A stretch of 64,000 nucleotides of DNA, from positions 1 to 64,000 of the forward strand of contig NZ_AP028056.1 of NCBI RefSeq assembly GCF_030297015.1, read 5' to 3'. The stretch's first letter is position 1; each line of letters begins with the position of its first letter. Origin of the DNA: Brooklawnia propionicigenes. Lineage in GTDB: Bacteria; Actinomycetota; Actinomycetes; Propionibacteriales; Propionibacteriaceae. Made by a program: the position numbers and the translations under genes. This document shows positions 5,811 through 64,000 of the stretch, in pieces. The notes beneath the pieces were generated by a model. The model was not told where the DNA came from and made no database searches. It saw only the letters and a program-made list of their open reading frames with translations.

Positions 5811-7895
5811 ATGAGTACCACCACCTCGGGGTCAGCCGCCAAACAGAAGTCCGGCCTGCGCATCCCCGGTTTCGCTCAACTGCAGCGGCTCGGCAAGAGC
5901 CTCATGCTGCCCATCGCTCTGCTGCCCGCGGCCGGCATCCTGCTGCGCCTGGGGCAGCCCGATCTGCTGGGTCAGATCACCACGCCGGTGATCGGACCGT
6001 TCTTCGAGGCCATGAGCGCCGCCGGGAGCGCGATCTTCAGCAGCCTTCCGCTGCTGTTCGCGATCGGTGTTGCGATCGGCTTCGCCAAGCGGGCGGACGG
6101 ATCAACCGCCTTGTCGGCGGCCGCCGGCTATCTGGTCATTGATGCCGTCTTCAAGACCATGTCACCGGTCGTGCTGCGCGACGTGGTCAATCAGGCCGGT
6201 GATCAGGCCGTCATCAACTACAGCGTCTTCGCCGGCATCGCGGTCGGCCTGGTCACAGCCTGGCTGTTCGACCGCTACCACAACATTCAGCTGCCCCCAT
6301 ATCTGGGCTTCTTCGGCGGCCGGCGCTTCGTGCCGATCGTCACCTCGCTGGCCTGCCTGATCATGGGCTTCGCGCTCAGCTACTTCTACCCGATCTTCAA
6401 CACCGGCCTGACCGGGGTGGGTGCGTTCATCGGTGGCACCGGGGTCATCGGTGCTTTCGTCTACGGCTTCATCAACCGCCTGTTGATTCCGATCGGTCTG
6501 CACCACATCGTCAACACCTACATCTGGTTCATCTACGGCGACTACACCACCGCGGCCGGCAACGTCGTCACCGGAGAACTCACCCGCTTCGCCGCCGGCG
6601 ATCCGGCCGCAGGGCTGCTGACCTCCGGCTTCTACCCGATCCTGATGTTCGGGCTACCCGCCGCCGCACTGGCCATGATCCATGTTGCCAAGCCGAAGCA
6701 GAAGAAGGTCGCCGTCGGCATCTTGTCCGCCGCCGGTCTGACCGCCTTCATCACCGGTGTCACCGAGCCGCTCGAGTTCGCCTTCATGTTCGTGGCGTTC
6801 CCGCTGTACCTGATTCACGCGGTACTGACCGGCCTGTCGCTGGCCATCGCCTACGCGCTCGACATCCATCTCGGCTTCTCGTTCTCGGCCGGCCTGATCG
6901 ACCTCCTGCTGTACGGCAGCGCACCAGCCGCCAAGGACATCCCCCTGCTGTTGGTGATGGGCGTTGCATTCTTCGCGATCTACTACTTCCTCTTCCGGTT
7001 CGCCATCGTCAAGTGGAATATGCGTACCCCGGGCCGCCAGGACGACGATGACTTCGAGGCCGAGCAGGCCGCCAACCAAACCGATGCCAGCGGCTCCTCC
7101 GGCGGCGCCACCAGCCCCGCCTCCGCGAAGGCCGAGCAACTGATCGCCGCCTTCGGAGGCCGTGCGAATCTGGTCAATGTCGACGCCTGCATCACCCGAT
7201 TGCGCATGGAGGTCGCCGACAAGAGCAAGGTCGACCAGGCTCGGCTGAAGGCCCTCGGTGCCGCCGGCGTGGTCGAGGTAGGCAACAACGTCCAGGCGAT
7301 CTTCGGCACCCAGGCGGACGCCCTGAAGTCCGACATCCAGGACGCTCTGGCCGCCAATCCCACAGATCCGATCGAGACGATCGCCGCGATCGAAGAGATA
7401 GCGCCGGCGACGGTCGTGGCAGCCGAGGCGAGCGCACCGGCGATCACCGTCATGGCGCCGATCGCCGGCCGGCCGGTCGCACTCAAGGACGTGCCGGACG
7501 CCACCTTCGCCGAGGGCATCGTCGGATATGGGCTTGCCATTGATCCGCCTCGCGATCTGGTGGACGCAGTCGCCCCGGTGGCCGGCAAGGTGATGCAGCT
7601 GTGGCCGCACGCGTTCGTCATCCTCACCGACGACCAGGTCGCCGTGCTCGTGCATCTCGGCCTGGACACCGTGCAACTGAAGGGCGAGGGCTTCACCACC
7701 CATGTCAGCCAGGGTGACCGGGTTGAGGCCGGTCAGCTGATCACCACCTACGACGTGCCGGCCGTGGCGGCCTCGGGCCGCAACCCGATCGTCCCCGTCG
7801 TCGTCATGGAGCGCAAGGCAGACGCCGTCGCCTTCACCGATGCCGTCATCGGCGACCAGGTCGCCGCTCTCGACGCACTGTTCACCGTCCGCTGA
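5811..7895 (+). CDS. nagE: PTS N-acetylglucosamine transporter EIICBA
   Basis: The 694-residue protein imports and phosphorylates N-acetylglucosamine using phosphate passed from HPr. The order is EIIC (about residues 20-400, about ten membrane segments, glucose superfamily), EIIB (about 445-525) and a Crr-type EIIA (about 545-694). The phospho-accepting EIIB cysteine is Cys460 in ACITRLR, and the EIIA histidine is His615 in [11 protein letters not shown] variable linker of Asp, Glu, Ser and Gly joins EIIC to EIIB. The frame stays open far upstream to 5034, but the ATG at 5811 follows GAGGAGA and the operator region, so it is the real start. The neighbours nagR, nagB and nagA support GlcNAc rather than glucose. 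Regulation should be release of NagR from the three dre sites when the amino sugar is present. Confidence 0.94.
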
Positions 7896-15564: not shown

Positions 15565-16569
15565 ATGACAGTTCGTATCGGAATCAACGGCTTCGGACGA
15601 ATCGGACGCAGCTATCTGCGTGCGGCACTGGCCAACAAAGCGGACGTCCAGGTGGTCGCCGTCAACGACCTCACCGACGCGTCCACGCTGGCGACACTAC
15701 TGGAGTGGGATTCGATCTCCGGCCACCTCGATGGGGTCAGTGTCGACGGTGACGTGATCACCGTGGGCGCCAACCAGATCAAGGTACTGTCCACGGCCGA
15801 TCCCAGCGCCATTGCGTGGGGGGAGTACGGGGCGGACGTGGTGATCGAATCGACCGGAAGATTCACCGACGGGGCGAAGGCTCTGGCGCATCTGAGCGGA
15901 GGCGCCAAGAAGGTGATCGTCTCGGCCCCCGCCAAGGGAGATGTGCCGACGTTCGTGCTGGGCGTGAACGACGACCGGCTTGATCCCACCGCCTCCGACG
16001 TGTTCTCGAACGGCTCGTGCACGACCAACTCGCTGGCGCCGCTGGCCAAGGTGCTCAACGACAGCTTCGGCATCGAGAGCGGCCTGATGACCACCGTTCA
16101 TGCCTACACCGGCGATCAGCGGCTGCAGGACGCCCCGCATTCGGACCTTCGCCGAGCCCGTGCCGCAGCGGTCTCGACCATCCCGACCTCCTCGGGTGCA
16201 GCCAAGGCGATCGGCAAGGTGATTCCCGAACTCGATGGACGTCTCACCGGTTTCGCATTGCGCGTGCCCATCCCGGTTGGTTCCATCACCGACCTGACTG
16301 CCGTCCTCACCAAGAGCGCTGACGTGGCCGAGATCAACCAGGCGTTCGCGGACGCCGCCGCGGCCGGCCCGCTGAAGGGCTACCTGCAGTACTCCGAAGC
16401 TCCGCTGGTCTCCGCTGACATCGTCGGCAATCCGCACTCCTCGATCTTCGACGCTCCGCTCACCCAGGTCGTCGGTCATCAGGTGAAGGTGCTGGGTTGG
16501 TACGACAATGAGTGGGGGTTCTCCAACCGGCTGGTCGAGTTCTCCGAACGTATCGGGAAGGCGCTGTAG
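15565..16569 (+). CDS. gap: Type I glyceraldehyde-3-phosphate dehydrogenase
   Basis: This 334-residue enzyme oxidises glyceraldehyde-3-phosphate to 1,3-bisphosphoglycerate with NAD(P)+ in glycolysis. The N-terminal INGFGRIGR is the dinucleotide-binding loop, Cys152 in NGSCTTNS is the catalytic cysteine, and the partner His lies in TTVHAYTGDQ. Two deviations stand out: the usual SCTTNC reads SCTTNS (Ser156 replaces the second Cys), and the residue before SC is Gly instead of Ala. WYDNEWG near the C-terminus is intact. The frame stays open upstream to 15322, but the ATG at 15565 gives the normal N-terminus and lies 1 bp after the TetR stop. It may be a second, condition-specific GAPDH; the main copy with pgk and tpi is not in the window. 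Confidence 0.93.
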   Translation: MTVRIGINGFGRIGRSYLRAALANKADVQVVAVNDLTDASTLATLLEWDSISGHLDGVSVDGDVITVGANQIKVLSTADPSAIAWGEYGADVVIESTGRFTDGAKALAHLSGGAKKVIVSAPAKGDVPTFVLGVNDDRLDPTASDVFSNGSCTTNSLAPLAKVLNDSFGIESGLMTTVHAYTGDQRLQDAPHSDLRRARAAAVSTIPTSSGAAKAIGKVIPELDGRLTGFALRVPIPVGSITDLTAVLTKSADVAEINQAFADAAAAGPLKGYLQYSEAPLVSADIVGNPHSSIFDAPLTQVVGHQVKVLGWYDNEWGFSNRLVEFSERIGKAL

Positions 16570-16590
16570 GGTCTGCCGGGAGGAGCGTCC

Positions 16591-17199
16591 GTGAGCAGTA
16601 ATTCTGCTGGCATCCCGCGCGTTGCCGTGCTGGGTACGGCGAGCGGCCTGATCTTGATGGCCTTCTTCACGGTTCTGTGGGGATCTTGGTCGCTTGTCGG
16701 ATTGTCGGGCCCGCTCGCCGTCGCAGTCATCGTTGCCTTCTCGAGCCTCGGGGTGGTCTTCGTCGTGGAGGGCGTCCGCCTGCTGCTGATCCTCCGGCGA
16801 TTCCCGACGATCGACACCGCGTCGCGCCGAGCGCAGACCAAGCGCATCGGCTTGCGGTTCGGCATCATCTTCGGGATCGAAGGCGTGCTGATCGGCGCGG
16901 CGAGCGGCCTGCTGGCCACGGCCGGGTTGTCGGATTACCTCAACCCGGTGATCGCGCTGATCGTCGGGCTGCATTTCATCCCGCTGGCGAGGGTGTTCGC
17001 GCGCACGATCGACTACTACATCGCCGGATGGGTCGTGATCGTGGCGATCACCGGAATCTGTCTTCTCGCCTTCAGCGGGACTCCCGTCTACACGGTGTGG
17101 ACGATGGTCTCGCTGGCCACGGCCTGTGGCACGAGCGCCTACGGCATCTACATGCGCCAACTGTCGAGGCGTCTGCGTGGTGAGCGGGCGGCAAGTTGA
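16591..17199 (+). CDS. Six-helix membrane protein, unknown function
   Basis: The 202-residue protein has about six hydrophobic segments separated by short loops and a basic C-terminal tail. I do not recognise a named family with certainty; it resembles small integral membrane proteins of the DUF7010/DUF308 type. The start is a GTG at 16591 preceded by GGGAGGAGC. It follows gap by 21 bp on the same strand and could be co-transcribed with the TetR-gap pair. There are no catalytic motifs or conserved charged residues inside helices except an Asp-Tyr-Tyr near residue 138. Function is open; membrane location is the only firm statement. Confidence 0.75.
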   Translation: MSSNSAGIPRVAVLGTASGLILMAFFTVLWGSWSLVGLSGPLAVAVIVAFSSLGVVFVVEGVRLLLILRRFPTIDTASRRAQTKRIGLRFGIIFGIEGVLIGAASGLLATAGLSDYLNPVIALIVGLHFIPLARVFARTIDYYIAGWVVIVAITGICLLAFSGTPVYTVWTMVSLATACGTSAYGIYMRQLSRRLRGERAAS

Positions 17200-17359
17200 G
17201 GCTGCGGGAACGGACAGCTCGCGGGGACACTCCCAGGCACTCCACAGCCAGCGGCAACCGGATCGGCTGCACCCGGCACGTACGGTAGTTGACAACGCAA
17301 TTACACATCCGAACCTGCGGCGTACAGCTCGCCGTCGCCAACCTCTCTGGAGGCACGAC

Positions 17360-17839
17360 ATGACCCCATCGGCTGCATTCACCAAGCGCGTCCGCTACGG
17401 CGCGGCAGTCGCCGGCCTGGCCGGCATTCTTGTTTTCGCCGGCTGCTCGGCCGAGACCGACGCCAGCGAAGAGACCCCGGCCGCCGCGACGTCCGAATCG
17501 TCCAGCACCTCGACGGCCCGAACCACGGCGGCGTCCACCGGCAAGTATGCCGATGGCACCTACACGGCGTCCGGCTCGTATCAGACCCCCGAGACCGTCG
17601 AGACGATCAGCGTCACCCTCACGTTGGACAATGACGTGATCACCGAGGTGAACGTCATCGGCGATCCCCAAGCGCGCGAGACTCAGCAGTACCAGGGCCA
17701 GTTCATCGGAGGCATCTCCGATGTGGTCGTCGGCAAGAACATCGACGAGATCTCGGTCAGCCGCGTTGCCGGCTCCTCGCTGACCAGCAAGGGATTCAAC
17801 TCCGCGGTGGACAAGATCAAGTCGGAAGCCTCATCCTGA
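17360..17839 (+). CDS. FMN-binding lipoprotein (covalent flavin acceptor)
   Basis: This 159-residue lipoprotein has a signal peptide ending in LVFAGC (Cys29 becomes lipidated), a Ser/Thr/Ala-rich linker (about 30-65) and a C-terminal FMN-binding domain like those of NqrC and RnfG. The flavinylation region aligns as AGSSLTSKGFN (137-147) with the family SGATLTS pattern, so Ser140 is the likely acceptor of FMN through a phosphoester bond. The next gene, with a 1-bp overlap, encodes ApbE, the enzyme that attaches FMN. It should act on the outer face of the membrane as an electron carrier. The ATG at 17360 follows CTGGAGG. It is the first gene of a three-gene redox operon. Flavinylation at Ser140 is inferred by alignment. 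Confidence 0.88.
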   Translation: MTPSAAFTKRVRYGAAVAGLAGILVFAGCSAETDASEETPAAATSESSSTSTARTTAASTGKYADGTYTASGSYQTPETVETISVTLTLDNDVITEVNVIGDPQARETQQYQGQFIGGISDVVVGKNIDEISVSRVAGSSLTSKGFNSAVDKIKSEASS

Positions 17840-18696
17840 TGCCCGAGCAGTGGCGGTTCGAGGCCATCGGCACCCGGTGGGAGATCGAGACCGTCCGCCC
17901 GCTGCAGCCCGGCGAACGTGCCCGCATCACGCGGCTGATCGACCAGTTCGACCGGGAATGGTCACGTTTCCGGTCTGATTCGATAGTCAGCCGGCTGGCC
18001 GTTTCGGGCGGCGAGACGGCCGCACCACCGGACGCCGCCGCGATGCTCGATGTCTTCCGCGAACTGTCAGCGGCCACCCGGGGCGCGGTCAACCCACTGA
18101 TAGGGGAGAGCCTGGCCCGGCGCGGCTACGACGCGTCCTATTCGTTCGTGGACACCGGGCCGATTGCCGCACCGCCCGATTGGACGACGGCCCTCACCTG
18201 GGACGACGGCCTGCTCCGCCTCGCCCAGCCCGCTGTGATCGACGTCGGAGCGCTCGGCAAGGGCCGCCTGGTCGATCTGATCAGCGCCGCCGTCTCTTCC
18301 ATCACCGACGGGCCGATCGTGGTGGACGCCAGTGGCGACCTGGCGGTGCGTGGTGGACCGGTCCGCATCGGGCTGGAAGATCCCCGCGACCCGCGGCGGG
18401 CGGTAGGAATCTGGGATGTGACCGACGCCGCGCTGTGCGCCTCGGCGATCAACCGGCGCACCTGGGGCGAGGGTCTGCACCACGTGCTCGACGCCCGGAC
18501 CGGCCGGCCCGTGAGAGAGGTCATCGCGACCTGGGCGCTCGCCTCGGACGCCATGCATGCCGATGCGGCGGCCACCGCGCTGTTCTTCTCCGGCGGGGCA
18601 GAGCTCGCGCACGACTGGGGAGTGGACTGGGTGCGGATGACCCACGAAGGCCGGCTCGAATGGTCACCCTCAACGACGGCAGAGTTGTTCACATGA
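17839..18696 (+). CDS. apbE: FAD:protein FMN transferase ApbE
   Basis: ApbE splits FAD and links FMN to a Thr or Ser of target proteins, most likely the lipoprotein encoded just upstream. The 285-residue sequence has the family N-terminus (FEAIGTRWEIE), a DREWSRFRSDSIVSRL region for FAD contact, the IDVGALGKGRLVD motif near residue 134, and HHVLDARTGRP near residue 214. A metal-binding DAMHADAAATALF segment lies near residue 235, the normal place for the Asp and Thr ligands. No lipobox is seen, so the protein may stay in the cytosol or be exported unusually. Start and stop overlap both neighbours (TGATG with the lipoprotein, ATGA with the reductase), showing tight translational coupling of the three genes. 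Confidence 0.92.
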   Translation: MPEQWRFEAIGTRWEIETVRPLQPGERARITRLIDQFDREWSRFRSDSIVSRLAVSGGETAAPPDAAAMLDVFRELSAATRGAVNPLIGESLARRGYDASYSFVDTGPIAAPPDWTTALTWDDGLLRLAQPAVIDVGALGKGRLVDLISAAVSSITDGPIVVDASGDLAVRGGPVRIGLEDPRDPRRAVGIWDVTDAALCASAINRRTWGEGLHHVLDARTGRPVREVIATWALASDAMHADAAATALFFSGGAELAHDWGVDWVRMTHEGRLEWSPSTTAELFT

Positions 18697-20274
18697 TCGG
18701 GCGGCTGACGGGAATCCGGACCCTTGTTTACGCGGAACTGGGGCGCCTGTCGATGTACCGGCTGGTGTTGTTGGCCCTCGACGCGCTCATAGTGATCGCC
18801 TTCGTCCTGGCGTTGCTGGGACTCGTCGTCCCCACGGGGGCCGAGTTGCTGGTCAGCGCCGTCGTGCTCGCGGGAGCCTGCCTGCTCACCGATCTGATCG
18901 GGCACCGATCTGATCGGGCACCGCCTGATCGGACGCCAGCTGCGCTTCGAATCGTCGCTGATCACCGCGAGCATTATGATGTTCGTGCTGCGTCCAACCA
19001 TCGAACCCATCGGCCTGGCCGGGCTCGTCATCGCGGCGGCGGTGGCCTGCGCTTCGAAGTACCTGCTCGTCTGGCGCGGACGCCACATCTTCAACCCGGC
19101 CGCTGTCGGTGCGACGGTCGTGACCATCGTCGCCACCGTGCTACCGCTGGACGCGGGTATCGGAAGTTCGGCGTGGTGGGTGGGTTCTCCGATTTTGCTT
19201 GTTCCGGTTCTCGTGCTGGGGATCATCGTCGCCTGGCGAACCGAGAAGCTCGCCGTGGTCTCGCTGTTCCTGCTGGTCGCGCTCGTAGTGACCACCATCC
19301 GGGTCGGCGTTCAGTACCAGCAGGCCGGCCTTGAGCTGAGCCTGGGGGACGCCGCCTGGCAGATGCTGAGCGCCTCCCCGTTCGTCTTCCTCGCCACCTT
19401 CATGCTGACCGAGCCGCTCACCACGGCTCCGCGGCGCTGGCAGCAACTCGTGGTGGCCGGCGTCGTGGGGCTGGCCGCAGGCTGGCCCATTCCGGTTGGC
19501 TACCTGACGCTCGGTCAAGAACGGGCACTGCTGATCGGCAATCTGGTGGCCTTCATCTTGTGCGTCCGCGGCTCGTTGCGCCTCAGCCTCACTGACCGCG
19601 GCTGGTTGACGCCGACGATTCAAGAACTCGTCTTCACCGTCGATGACCGGCTCCGTTTCGAGGCGGGACAGTACCTCGAATTGGAGGTACCGCATCCCCA
19701 TCCGGACTCCCGCGGTACTCGGCGTCCATTCAGCATCGTCTCGGCACCTGAGGACCTGCCGACACTGCGGATCGCCTACCGCGACGGCGCGCAACCACGA
19801 AGCAGCTTCAAGACCGCGCTGGCCGATGTGGAACGCGGCGGGCTGCTGCACGCCACCGGCGTGTGGGGTGACTTCCTGCTGCCCGCAGATGCGCGCCGCC
19901 CGATCCTGCTGCTGGCCGGTGGTATCGGGATCACGCCCTTCATTTCGCAGCTGCGGCACCTGGCAGCTTCCGGACAGACCCGTGACATCGTCCTGGTCTA
20001 TGTGGTCTCGGACCCCGCGATCGCCTTCCGTGACGAGATCGCGGCGACCGGCATTGCGACCGTCGTCTTCGCCCAGCAGGCTCCGGACGAGCTGCCCGCA
20101 GGCTGGACACTCGCCCCATCGGCCCGCATCGACGGCGAATCGTTGCTGGCGGCGGTGCCCGACCTGAGCTCCCGAGATGCCTACGTCTCCGGCCCGCCGC
20201 GGCTCATCGCCGACCTCACGCCGTCCCTGCGCGGCGCGCGCACACTGACGACCGACGCGTTCGCCGGCTACTGA
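18693..20274 (+). pseudogene. NqrB/RnfD-like membrane flavin reductase, frameshifted
   Basis: The gene starts with an ATG overlapping the apbE stop. It reads through one and a half membrane helices until a perfect 16-bp tandem duplication at 18891-18922 shifts the frame. Removing one copy restores a continuous protein of about 520 residues: an NqrB/RnfD-like membrane domain (with GRHIFNPAAVGA), then an FNR-type reductase module with RRPFSIVSAP for flavin and GGIGITPF for NAD(P)H. In the present form the 3' part is open from ATG 18976 (432 residues, lacking the first two helices), and the 5' frame would end at 19334 after about 140 unrelated residues. The intact protein should pass electrons from NAD(P)H through the membrane to the FMN lipoprotein. 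No 2Fe-2S motif is present. Inactivation, reversible phase variation or an assembly error are all possible. Confidence 0.85.
18891..18922 (+). repeat. 16-bp perfect tandem duplication causing the frameshift
   Basis: The unit GATCTGATCGGGCACC occurs twice with no spacer (18891-18906 and 18907-18922). A partial third copy, GCCTGATCGG, follows, which would favour slipped-strand replication. Sixteen is not a multiple of three, so the extra copy moves the reading frame of the membrane reductase by one base. Confidence 0.95.
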
Positions 20275-20329
20275 GCTGCTGGGAGTCGCTCAAGGACGAA
20301 GTGTCGGCACCGATGGCTACCATGGCCCC

Positions 20330-22168
20330 ATGCCTGATCTTTCCCCACTCGACGTGCTGCGGACCACGTTCGGGTACGACGAATTCCGGGGTGACCAGGC
20401 GCAGGTGATCGACCATGTCATCGCCGGCGGTGACGCGATCGTGTTGATGCCCACAGGAGGCGGCAAGTCGCTGTGCTACCAGATTCCGGCGATGGTGCGC
20501 ACCGGGGTGGGCGTGGTGATCTCCCCGCTGATCGCGCTGATGCACGACCAGGTCAGCGCGCTGGAGAGCCTCGGCGTACGCGCCGGATTCCTCAACTCCA
20601 CCCAGAGCTACGACGAGCAGCGGGCCACCGAGCAGCGCGCGCTCAACGGCGAGCTCGACCTGCTGTACCTCGCCCCCGAACGCCTCGACCTGCCGCGAAC
20701 CCGGGAGTTCTTCGACCGGCTCGCGATCTCGCTCTTCGCCATCGACGAGGCGCACTGCGTCTCCCAGTGGGGCCACGACTTTCGTCCGGAGTACCTGAAG
20801 CTGTCGGTGCTGGGCGAACGCTGGCCCGGCGTGCCGCGAATCGCGCTGACCGCGACCGCCACCACCGCCACCCGTCACGAGATCGCCGAACGGCTCGGCC
20901 TGCAACAAGCCCGCACCTTCGTGGCCAGCTTCGACCGCCCCAACATCAGCTACCGCATCGAGACCAAGCAGCAACCGCTGAAACAGCTGATCTCGCTGAT
21001 CCGCGCCGAGCACGTTGGCGATGCCGGCATCGTCTACTGCCTCAGCCGCAAGTCGGTCGAGGCGACCGCAGCGGCCCTGGTCAGGGAGGGGATCGAGGCG
21101 CTGCCGTACCATGCCGGGCTTCCGGGGCCGGTACGTTCGGCCAATCAGTCCCGGTTCTTGCGCGACGACGGCGTGGTGATGGTGGCGACCATCGCCTTCG
21201 GGATGGGAATCGACAAGCCCGATGTCCGCTTCGTCGCCCATCTCGACCTGCCGCGCAGCATCGAGGGGTACTACCAGGAGACCGGGCGGGCCGGACGCGA
21301 CGGCCTGCCGGCGACCGCGTGGATGGCCTACGGGATGGCCGACATCGTGCAGCAGCGTCAGTTGATCGAGGGTTCGGACGGCGATTCCGCGCACAAGCGC
21401 CTGCTCGGCCAGCACCTGGACGCGATGCTCGGGCTGTGCGAGACGCTGCGCTGCCGTCGTCAACTGATGCTGGAGTACTTCGGTGAAGCCAGTGAGCCAT
21501 GCGGCAACTGCGACACCTGCCTGGATCCGCCCACACCCTGGGACGGCACCGTCGCCACTCAGAAACTGCTGTCCACCGTGGTGCGGCTCAAGCGCGAACG
21601 CAATCAGCGCTTCGGTGCCGGCCAGCTCATCGATATCCTGCTGGGCAGGCGGACACCACGCGTCGAACAGTGGCATCACGACCAGTTGAGCACCTTCGGG
21701 ATCGGCACCGAACTCACCGATCTGCAGTGGCGGGCCATGGTGCGTCAGCTGCTGGCCGCCGGACTGCTCGGCGTCTCCGCCGATGGACACCAGACCCTGG
21801 AGCCTACCCAGGCCTCGTGGGCGGTGCTGCGCGGGCAGCGCTCCGTCGCGCTGCGACACGATGCGATCACCCGTGCAGGAGCTGCGAAGAAGCGCAAGGA
21901 CAGCACCAGAACCGGCTCACGAGCATCGGCGGTCGACGACCTGGTGGCCGGAGATCGGGAACTGTTCGAACAGCTGCGCGCCTGGCGGGCCGAAACGGCG
22001 CGAGCAGCGTCCGTTCCGGCGTATGTGGTCTTTCCCGATGCCACGCTGGCGGCGATCGCACAACGCCGTCCCGACTCGTTGGACGGACTGTTCGCCATCA
22101 GCGGCGTAGGTGCCAAGAAGCTGGAATCCTACGGCGAGGCCGTCCTGCAAGTGATCAGTGCAGGCTGA
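20330..22168 (+). CDS. recQ: ATP-dependent DNA helicase RecQ
   Basis: RecQ unwinds DNA 3' to 5' in recombination and repair. The 612-residue length is typical. Residues 10-210 are the first RecA-like domain with PTGGGKS (41-47) as Walker A and DEAH (139-142) as Walker B. The second RecA domain contains GRAGRDGLP near residue 325. A zinc site (CRRQ, CGNCDTC around 380-405), a winged-helix RQC region and a C-terminal HRDC domain (about 535-605) follow. The start ATG 20330 lies 6 nt after a TACCAT box (20318-20323), so the message is probably leaderless. It is on the same strand as the redox cassette but separated by 55 bp, and appears to have its own promoter. Confidence 0.95.
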
Positions 22169-62917: not shown

Positions 62918-64000
62918 GTGCGGCGCCCCATGCTCTTGGTGACAGGTCTGCTCACCGGTCTGGCATTGCTGACAGGCTGCGACTCCACTGTCGGGACTCA
63001 ACAGCATCTTGGTGACACCGTTCGGCTCGGCGTCAACGTGGAGCAGTCCGGTGACCTGGCGTCCTACGGGGATTCGATGACCAAAGGCATCCAGGTGGCG
63101 GTTGACCAGGCCAATTCGTCGGGGGGCGTTCGCGGGCGCCAGATCCAGCTGATCACGATGGACAATCAGGGCAATTCCGGCAAGGCGGTGGCCACGGCGA
63201 CCACGTTGATGAGCCAGCAGCGCGCCTTGTCAGTCATCGGTCCGGTCAGCGATGGGCTGTTCGCACTCACGTTGCCGGTGGCCGACCATCAGCAGATACC
63301 GGTCATCTCGGGTTCCGCATGCGATGCGAACAGATTGAACGACGAGAACGGCAAGGTGTACCAGTTCGGGTTCCGCACCTGCTTGGGCCTCGACCAGCAG
63401 GGTGCTGCGATGGCGACGTTTGCGCATTCGAATCTGGCGGCGTCCACCGCTGCCGTCTTCCGCACCGCGGACACGGGCTTCGCCAACGAATTCGCGGACG
63501 CATTCACCGACGCATTCACCGCCGACGGAGGCACAGTCGGCGTCCAGGACGCGTTTCCTGCGGGGGAGACGGACTACTCACGATTCGTGGACATCATGAG
63601 GAGCAGTCCCACCGATGTCGTATACGTCGCCGCACAGGCGCCGGAGGCTGCCAGCCTGATCCGCACCTTGCGCGAGGCCGGCATCGACAACCCGATCCTT
63701 GCCAGTGGCGACATGAACGCACCGGCGGCCAACGAGATCGCCGGGCCGGATGCGCTGAACCGCGTCTATTTCGTCTCGCAGTTCAGCGCGCTGGACACCG
63801 ACAACGCGGTCGCGCAGAACTTCCTGAACGCCTACCGGCAGGCCTACGGAGCCGATCCCGATACGCACGCCGCGATGGCTTACGATGCCATCCTGCTGGC
63901 CATCTACGGTATTGACCGCGCCGATGAACTGACCGGTATCAACGTGCAACGTGCCCTGGCGACGGCCCGCAACATCGACGGTGCGGGCGGCAAGTTCAGC
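62918..64000 (+). CDS. Second LivK-like binding lipoprotein, truncated by window end
   Basis: The gene starts with a GTG at 62918 after GAGGAGG (62906-62912) and is open to base 64000, giving 361 residues so far. It has a signal peptide with lipobox LLTGC (Cys21) and a type I periplasmic binding fold: VRLGVNVEQSGDLASYGDSMTKGIQVAVDQAN is the start, and VIGPVSDGLFALTLPVADHQQ follows. FRTCLGLDQQGAAMATFA parallels the equivalent region of the LivK at 57666. It could give the liv channel a second ligand range. The end is outside the window. Confidence 0.88.
   Translation, partial: MRRPMLLVTGLLTGLALLTGCDSTVGTQQHLGDTVRLGVNVEQSGDLASYGDSMTKGIQVAVDQANSSGGVRGRQIQLITMDNQGNSGKAVATATTLMSQQRALSVIGPVSDGLFALTLPVADHQQIPVISGSACDANRLNDENGKVYQFGFRTCLGLDQQGAAMATFAHSNLAASTAAVFRTADTGFANEFADAFTDAFTADGGTVGVQDAFPAGETDYSRFVDIMRSSPTDVVYVAAQAPEAASLIRTLREAGIDNPILASGDMNAPAANEIAGPDALNRVYFVSQFSALDTDNAVAQNFLNAYRQAYGADPDTHAAMAYDAILLAIYGIDRADELTGINVQRALATARNIDGAGGKFS

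Follow-up and report, generated by a model that had tools for sequence, protein, structure and literature searches.

The last gene of a flavinylation-based electron-transfer cluster in Brooklawnia propionicigenes, which encodes an NqrB/RnfD-like membrane part joined to an FNR part, is broken by a perfect 16-bp tandem duplication. We consider it probable that a single slippage duplication has recently made a pseudogene of this gene in this strain, within a species that is apparently losing the system. The window, meaning the whole stretch of DNA that was analysed, comprises the first 64,000 nucleotides of contig NZ_AP028056.1 (assembly GCF_030297015.1), and the features discussed are collected in Table 1. 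The proposed course of events starts from a one-unit ancestor with two CACCG motifs 16 bp apart, between which a single slippage event would have duplicated the 16-bp segment. The second unit imposes a +1 frame shift on the nqrB/rnfD-FNR gene of this trans-membrane electron-transfer cluster; translation from the normal start then yields about 70 family residues and a nonsense tail, and the FNR part lacks a good start of its own. In the other strain of the species, the same region would have been lost through a separate deletion. Frameshifting short tandem duplications are an ordinary kind of mutation.

Table 1. Features of the flavinylation cluster, its repeat and the lesions discussed in the text
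Feature	Position	Strand	Details
FMN_bind lipoprotein gene	17360..17839	+	PF04205 25.1 bits (cut-off 22); ATG 17360 with GGAGG upstream; motif VAGSSLTSKGF
apbE (FAD:protein FMN transferase), frame open here	17839..18696	+	PF02424 121.9 bits (cut-off 25.6)
nqrB/rnfD-like + FNR gene, broken frame	18693..20274	+	Shares ATGA with the end of apbE (start and stop overlap)
N-terminal frame of the broken gene	18693..19336	+	About 70 family-matching residues, then out-of-frame tail; stop 19334-19336
Tandem run, period 16, perfect, 37 bp	18887..18923	+	CACCG at 18887, 18903 and 18919 (putative role in slippage)
Remainder frame (rest of NqrB-like part + FNR with NAD_binding_1)	18898..20274	+	Begins SGTDLIGHRLIGRQLRFESSLITA; first ATG 18976
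Degenerate third motif	18924..18934	+	CCTGATCGGAC; coding sequence for LIGRQ
Stretch missing from the conspecific MAG	18315..19339	+	1025 bp; 1 base common at the junction
Second FMN_bind/apbE locus (G000:C1:1350788-1354124, L161)	FMN_bind 1353873-1354124; apbE 1350788-1351570	minus	

The cluster is arranged in the order FMN_bind lipoprotein gene, apbE and, last, the nqrB/rnfD-like FNR gene. Relatives of the FMN_bind protein carry a VAGSSLTSxGF-type motif, and NAD_binding_1 (PF00175) is recognised in 18976-20271 at 26.2 bits against a cut-off of 22. An FMN-binding domain, apbE and a C-terminal NAD-binding domain are features of the NQR/RNF-like flavinylation cluster, and all of them are present here. 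For the membrane part, PF03116 (NQR2_RnfD_RnfE) gave no match in the window pieces, and among five related proteins four scored below the cut-off (17.6 to 25.8 against 27.7 bits) and the fifth, a piece from locus L008 with a chosen start, gave no match. The name NqrB/RnfD-FNR, which the original prediction had used, can reasonably be kept, but the membrane part is a distant member. All 18 PDB sequences matched by an intact relative (L034) aligned to its FNR part. A substitute NqrB/RnfD family gene was sought with PF03116 in four whole genomes, this one included, and found in none, a result that says little because the model misses the studied gene too. Matches in an NCBIfam scan were all far below the curated cut-offs. 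A scan of 16400-20400 returned no promoter-like and three terminator-like sites (shuffles average 1.2) and was uninformative. Upstream of the cluster, at 16591-17199, lies a gene for a 202-aa protein without a Pfam match, to which only the conspecific MAG has a counterpart among the compared loci.

The repeated unit is GATCTGATCGGGCACC, with copies at 18891-18906 and 18907-18922 and no further exact match anywhere in the 3.21-Mb genome. The 16-bp tandem duplication of the original prediction is thereby borne out, with both units located inside a perfect period-16 run; the array amounts to only 2.3 perfect copies. Tandem Repeats Finder delimits it as 18887-18932 (2.9 copies, score 78, the top of 27 rows for the window). 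The third imperfect copy that had also been described exists as a degenerate motif, but it belongs to the normal coding sequence. When the window was simulated 20 times with a first-order Markov model, no perfect duplication of period 13-60 arose; the real window holds one, namely this run. A 400-kb sample of the genome contains six perfect runs of period 13-120 (periods 14-79), five of them of period 13-60; this corresponds to about one of the latter per 80 kb, so that one in 64 kb is about usual for this genome. The same sample bears on whether the second unit is an assembly or sequencing error and the true chromosome holds a single unit, which we judge improbable: perfect tandem runs occur elsewhere in this genome, the assembly is one contig with a completeness of 100, and a perfect 16-bp duplication is no homopolymer-type error. 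Elsewhere in the window, a 12-bp tandem array, ACGCATTCACCG, occupies 63486-63521 with three copies and 87% matches.

The unit lies within the reading frame and, at 16 bp, is no multiple of 3; the frame is lost. The N-terminal frame, whose roughly 70 family residues include two hydrophobic stretches (judged by eye), reads ...ACLLTDLIGH and then departs from the family sequence. Both frames contain TDLIGH, the translation of the duplicated segment in each of them, an overlap that a 16-bp duplication demands. It is conceivable that the split gene works, with a functional protein arising either from a +1 shift of the ribosome or from translation that begins internally at ATG 18976, and this we hold to be highly improbable. 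Between 18898 and 19333 neither frame is closed, and a shift anywhere in this interval would join them. The remainder is also open over 458 codons, which proves little because long open frames are frequent by chance here, with overlapping frames of up to 562 aa. Against internal initiation, no ribosome-binding sequence was seen upstream of ATG 18976, and a protein begun at that codon would be without the hydrophobic stretches of the N terminus; the missing ribosome-binding sequence is weak evidence, since that of the normal nqrB start is weak too. Against either route, split frames occur in 0 of 79 related loci, and a conserved split gene was rejected because those loci each have a single continuous frame, which also speaks against a programmed ribosomal frameshift.

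The related loci also reveal the ancestral state of the site. Spacing was counted beginning with the codon that follows residue 70 of the N piece and ending where the C piece begins, with shorter alignments extended ungapped; 80 related loci were fetched, and the conspecific MAG (L033) was excluded from the count as being without the N-terminal part, leaving 79. The spacing is 57 nt in all 79, against 73 nt in the window, a difference of exactly 16, from which it follows that one unit is ancestral and the second derived; the loci are mostly from Microbacterium and therefore not independent. An intact gene from the same family (G146, 58-59% identity) likewise has 57 nt, as taken from coordinates. 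The frame from the start to the C piece is open over at least 89 codons in every one of the 79. The exact 16-bp unit is absent from all compared loci of other genomes, and the constant spacing means that a repeat array at this place is not kept in relatives. The claim that the duplication breaks the frame and that one copy fewer restores it agrees with the additional 16 nt and with the two overlapping frames, and the comparison with related genomes, which had been suggested along with it, returns one-unit spacing throughout and no locus with an extra unit.

The FMN_bind, apbE and nqrB-FNR genes stand in this order in 76 of the 79 relatives, while L059, L088 and L104 are without a match to one or two of them. 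Relaxed constraint was looked for in alignment columns that do not vary among the other loci. In nqrB-FNR there are 109 such columns across the other 79 rows, and the window departs from 5 of them, but it is also the most divergent row; when those 79 rows were put through the same test, 61 showed no change, 13 showed one, four showed two and one showed four. For apbE, 59 columns do not vary among the other 76 rows, and the window has 0 changes in them. A family-wide search found matches at E <= 1e-20 in 5 of 198 genomes, including this one and the MAG, and the best of the others (G146, 59% identity) shows that the gene also occurs in the family outside this species. The nearest copies found are from Microbacteriaceae, at up to 66%; acquisition followed by loss is a possible history of the cluster.

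Some further observations concern the related loci themselves. Of 78 related loci whose sequence extends far enough, 5 have perfect tandem repeats (periods 14-41) that start within 250 bp past the nqrB-FNR stop codon; in one further locus, L060, the repeat begins just upstream of that codon. These repeats fall at about 7290-7610 in each of L039, L057, L060, L061, L078 and L096, with units that vary between species, and other 250-bp bins around the cluster have at most one locus with a perfect tandem repeat. Microbacterium-like copies appear in records of Planococcus sp. APC 4015 (L047, 60% identity) and Stenotrophomonas maltophilia P13 (L108, 55%), and a plasmid collection gave a single match, weak and partial, to an unannotated Pseudomonas record (NZ_CP081947.1), at 73% over 11% of the cluster DNA. 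These three records are possibly contaminated or mislabelled.

Among the eight genomes of the genus that were searched, this one included, one other belongs to the same species. It is a MAG, Propionibacterium sp. isolate AS27yjCOA_218 (G057), and it is about 99.7% identical to the window over 12.7 kb, with 38 differences in about 12,660 positions outside a deletion (the table of position differences has 42 rows, of which 4 are junction artefacts). Besides the array, the deletion removes the 3′ portion of apbE and the 5′ portion of nqrB-FNR, and it is out of frame for both genes. The MAG assembly contains no match to the missing stretch at any other place; the deletion could be an assembly fault. 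It took the repeat site along, whatever number of units once stood there. The FNR part that remains carries G298S, at a position that is Gly in 83 of 83 other aligned loci.

A lesion of another kind is present at a second FMN_bind/apbE locus of the genome. Compared with the MAG (G057:C40, L162), the window's genome has 2251 extra bases here, whose ends overlap by 5 bases, and this insertion holds an IS4/5-type transposase (PF13340 84.8 bits, PF01609 52.8 bits). The element sits at the FMN_bind/apbE overlap, past the first apbE codons as listed in the MAG (L162 1505-2449), which leaves the second-locus apbE without its own start; a start codon inside the element, giving a 345-aa frame, is possible. 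In the MAG, nothing interrupts the locus. With the IS insertion in one strain and the 1025-bp deletion in the other, each strain has a flavinylation-gene lesion that is absent from its counterpart, and further apbE/FMN_bind genes kept in the genome indicate that not all flavinylation is lost.

The original prediction had left the choice between a switch and a recent loss. In the former, the copy number of the 16-bp unit would change at a high rate and toggle electron transfer within the population, as a form of phase variation, which we regard as unlikely. In its favour, the period is no multiple of 3, all 37 bp of the run are perfect, and as single-stranded DNA the array has a better fold than 199 of 200 shuffles do (z -2.6), a suggestive sign only that the fold could help slippage; there is also an actinobacterial precedent for phase variation through tandem-repeat copy number, in promoters, as described in an extract of PMC12817950. 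Slippage could mechanically revert a perfect duplication. Against a switch stand the mere 2.3 perfect copies, the absence of an extra unit here from all 79 related loci, and the other strain, which has a deletion and no different copy number; no allele with another copy number was seen in the species, where the one other genome is itself without the site. A combination of the two readings, in which the species repeatedly inactivates its flavinylation-based electron-export genes, seems quite unlikely to us: the two-unit allele would be a slippage-revertible off state in part of the population, and the MAG deletion and the second-locus IS insertion would be results, irreversible or slower to arise, of one and the same selection against that system. 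Recent loss is favoured over an evolved switch by the different lesions in the two strains, the lack of an array in relatives and the very low copy number. The loss part of the original prediction thus gains from the related loci and from the MAG, and the switch part is without positive evidence. The trend towards loss that we infer is drawn from two genomes of the species, one of them a MAG.

If the gene has been lost, it should be annotated as a pseudogene, and both strains are probably without the route from NAD(P)H to an extracytosolic flavin, with the FMN_bind gene kept. Were populations to show reversion of the duplication, an actinobacterium would instead offer a case of an extracytosolic redox system switched by a tandem duplication in a coding gene.

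The duplication has partial parallels in known systems. In the consulted portion of a review of fungi (PMC13207564), microhomology-mediated tandem duplications likewise involve a short direct repeat flanking the segment and a premature stop in a coding gene. That portion calls the fungal duplications reversible, whereas the one described here is known as a two-unit allele in one genome. Phase variation in Mycobacterium tuberculosis likewise pairs an actinobacterium with tandem-repeat copy number; according to the same extract of PMC12817950, however, the repeats there lie in promoters (one of 54-56 bp) and vary in copy number between strains and populations, in contrast to a single coding 16-bp duplication in one genome. 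The cluster itself is of a known type. As far as the consulted part of Meheust et al. (2021, eLife, PMC8238504) goes, 127 NQR/RNF-like clusters were found in 127 genomes, primarily of Actinobacteria and the candidate phyla radiation, with a presumed electron flow from NAD(P)H to extracytosolic FMN. Common to those clusters and to this one are an FMN-binding domain protein, apbE and, as a more distant member here, an NqrB/RnfD-like membrane part joined to a NAD-binding domain at the C terminus, with the difference that the fusion gene here is frame-shifted and that the membrane part of four close relatives falls below the PF03116 cut-off. In essence, the finding is a fresh instance of a known cluster type combined with a known kind of mutation.
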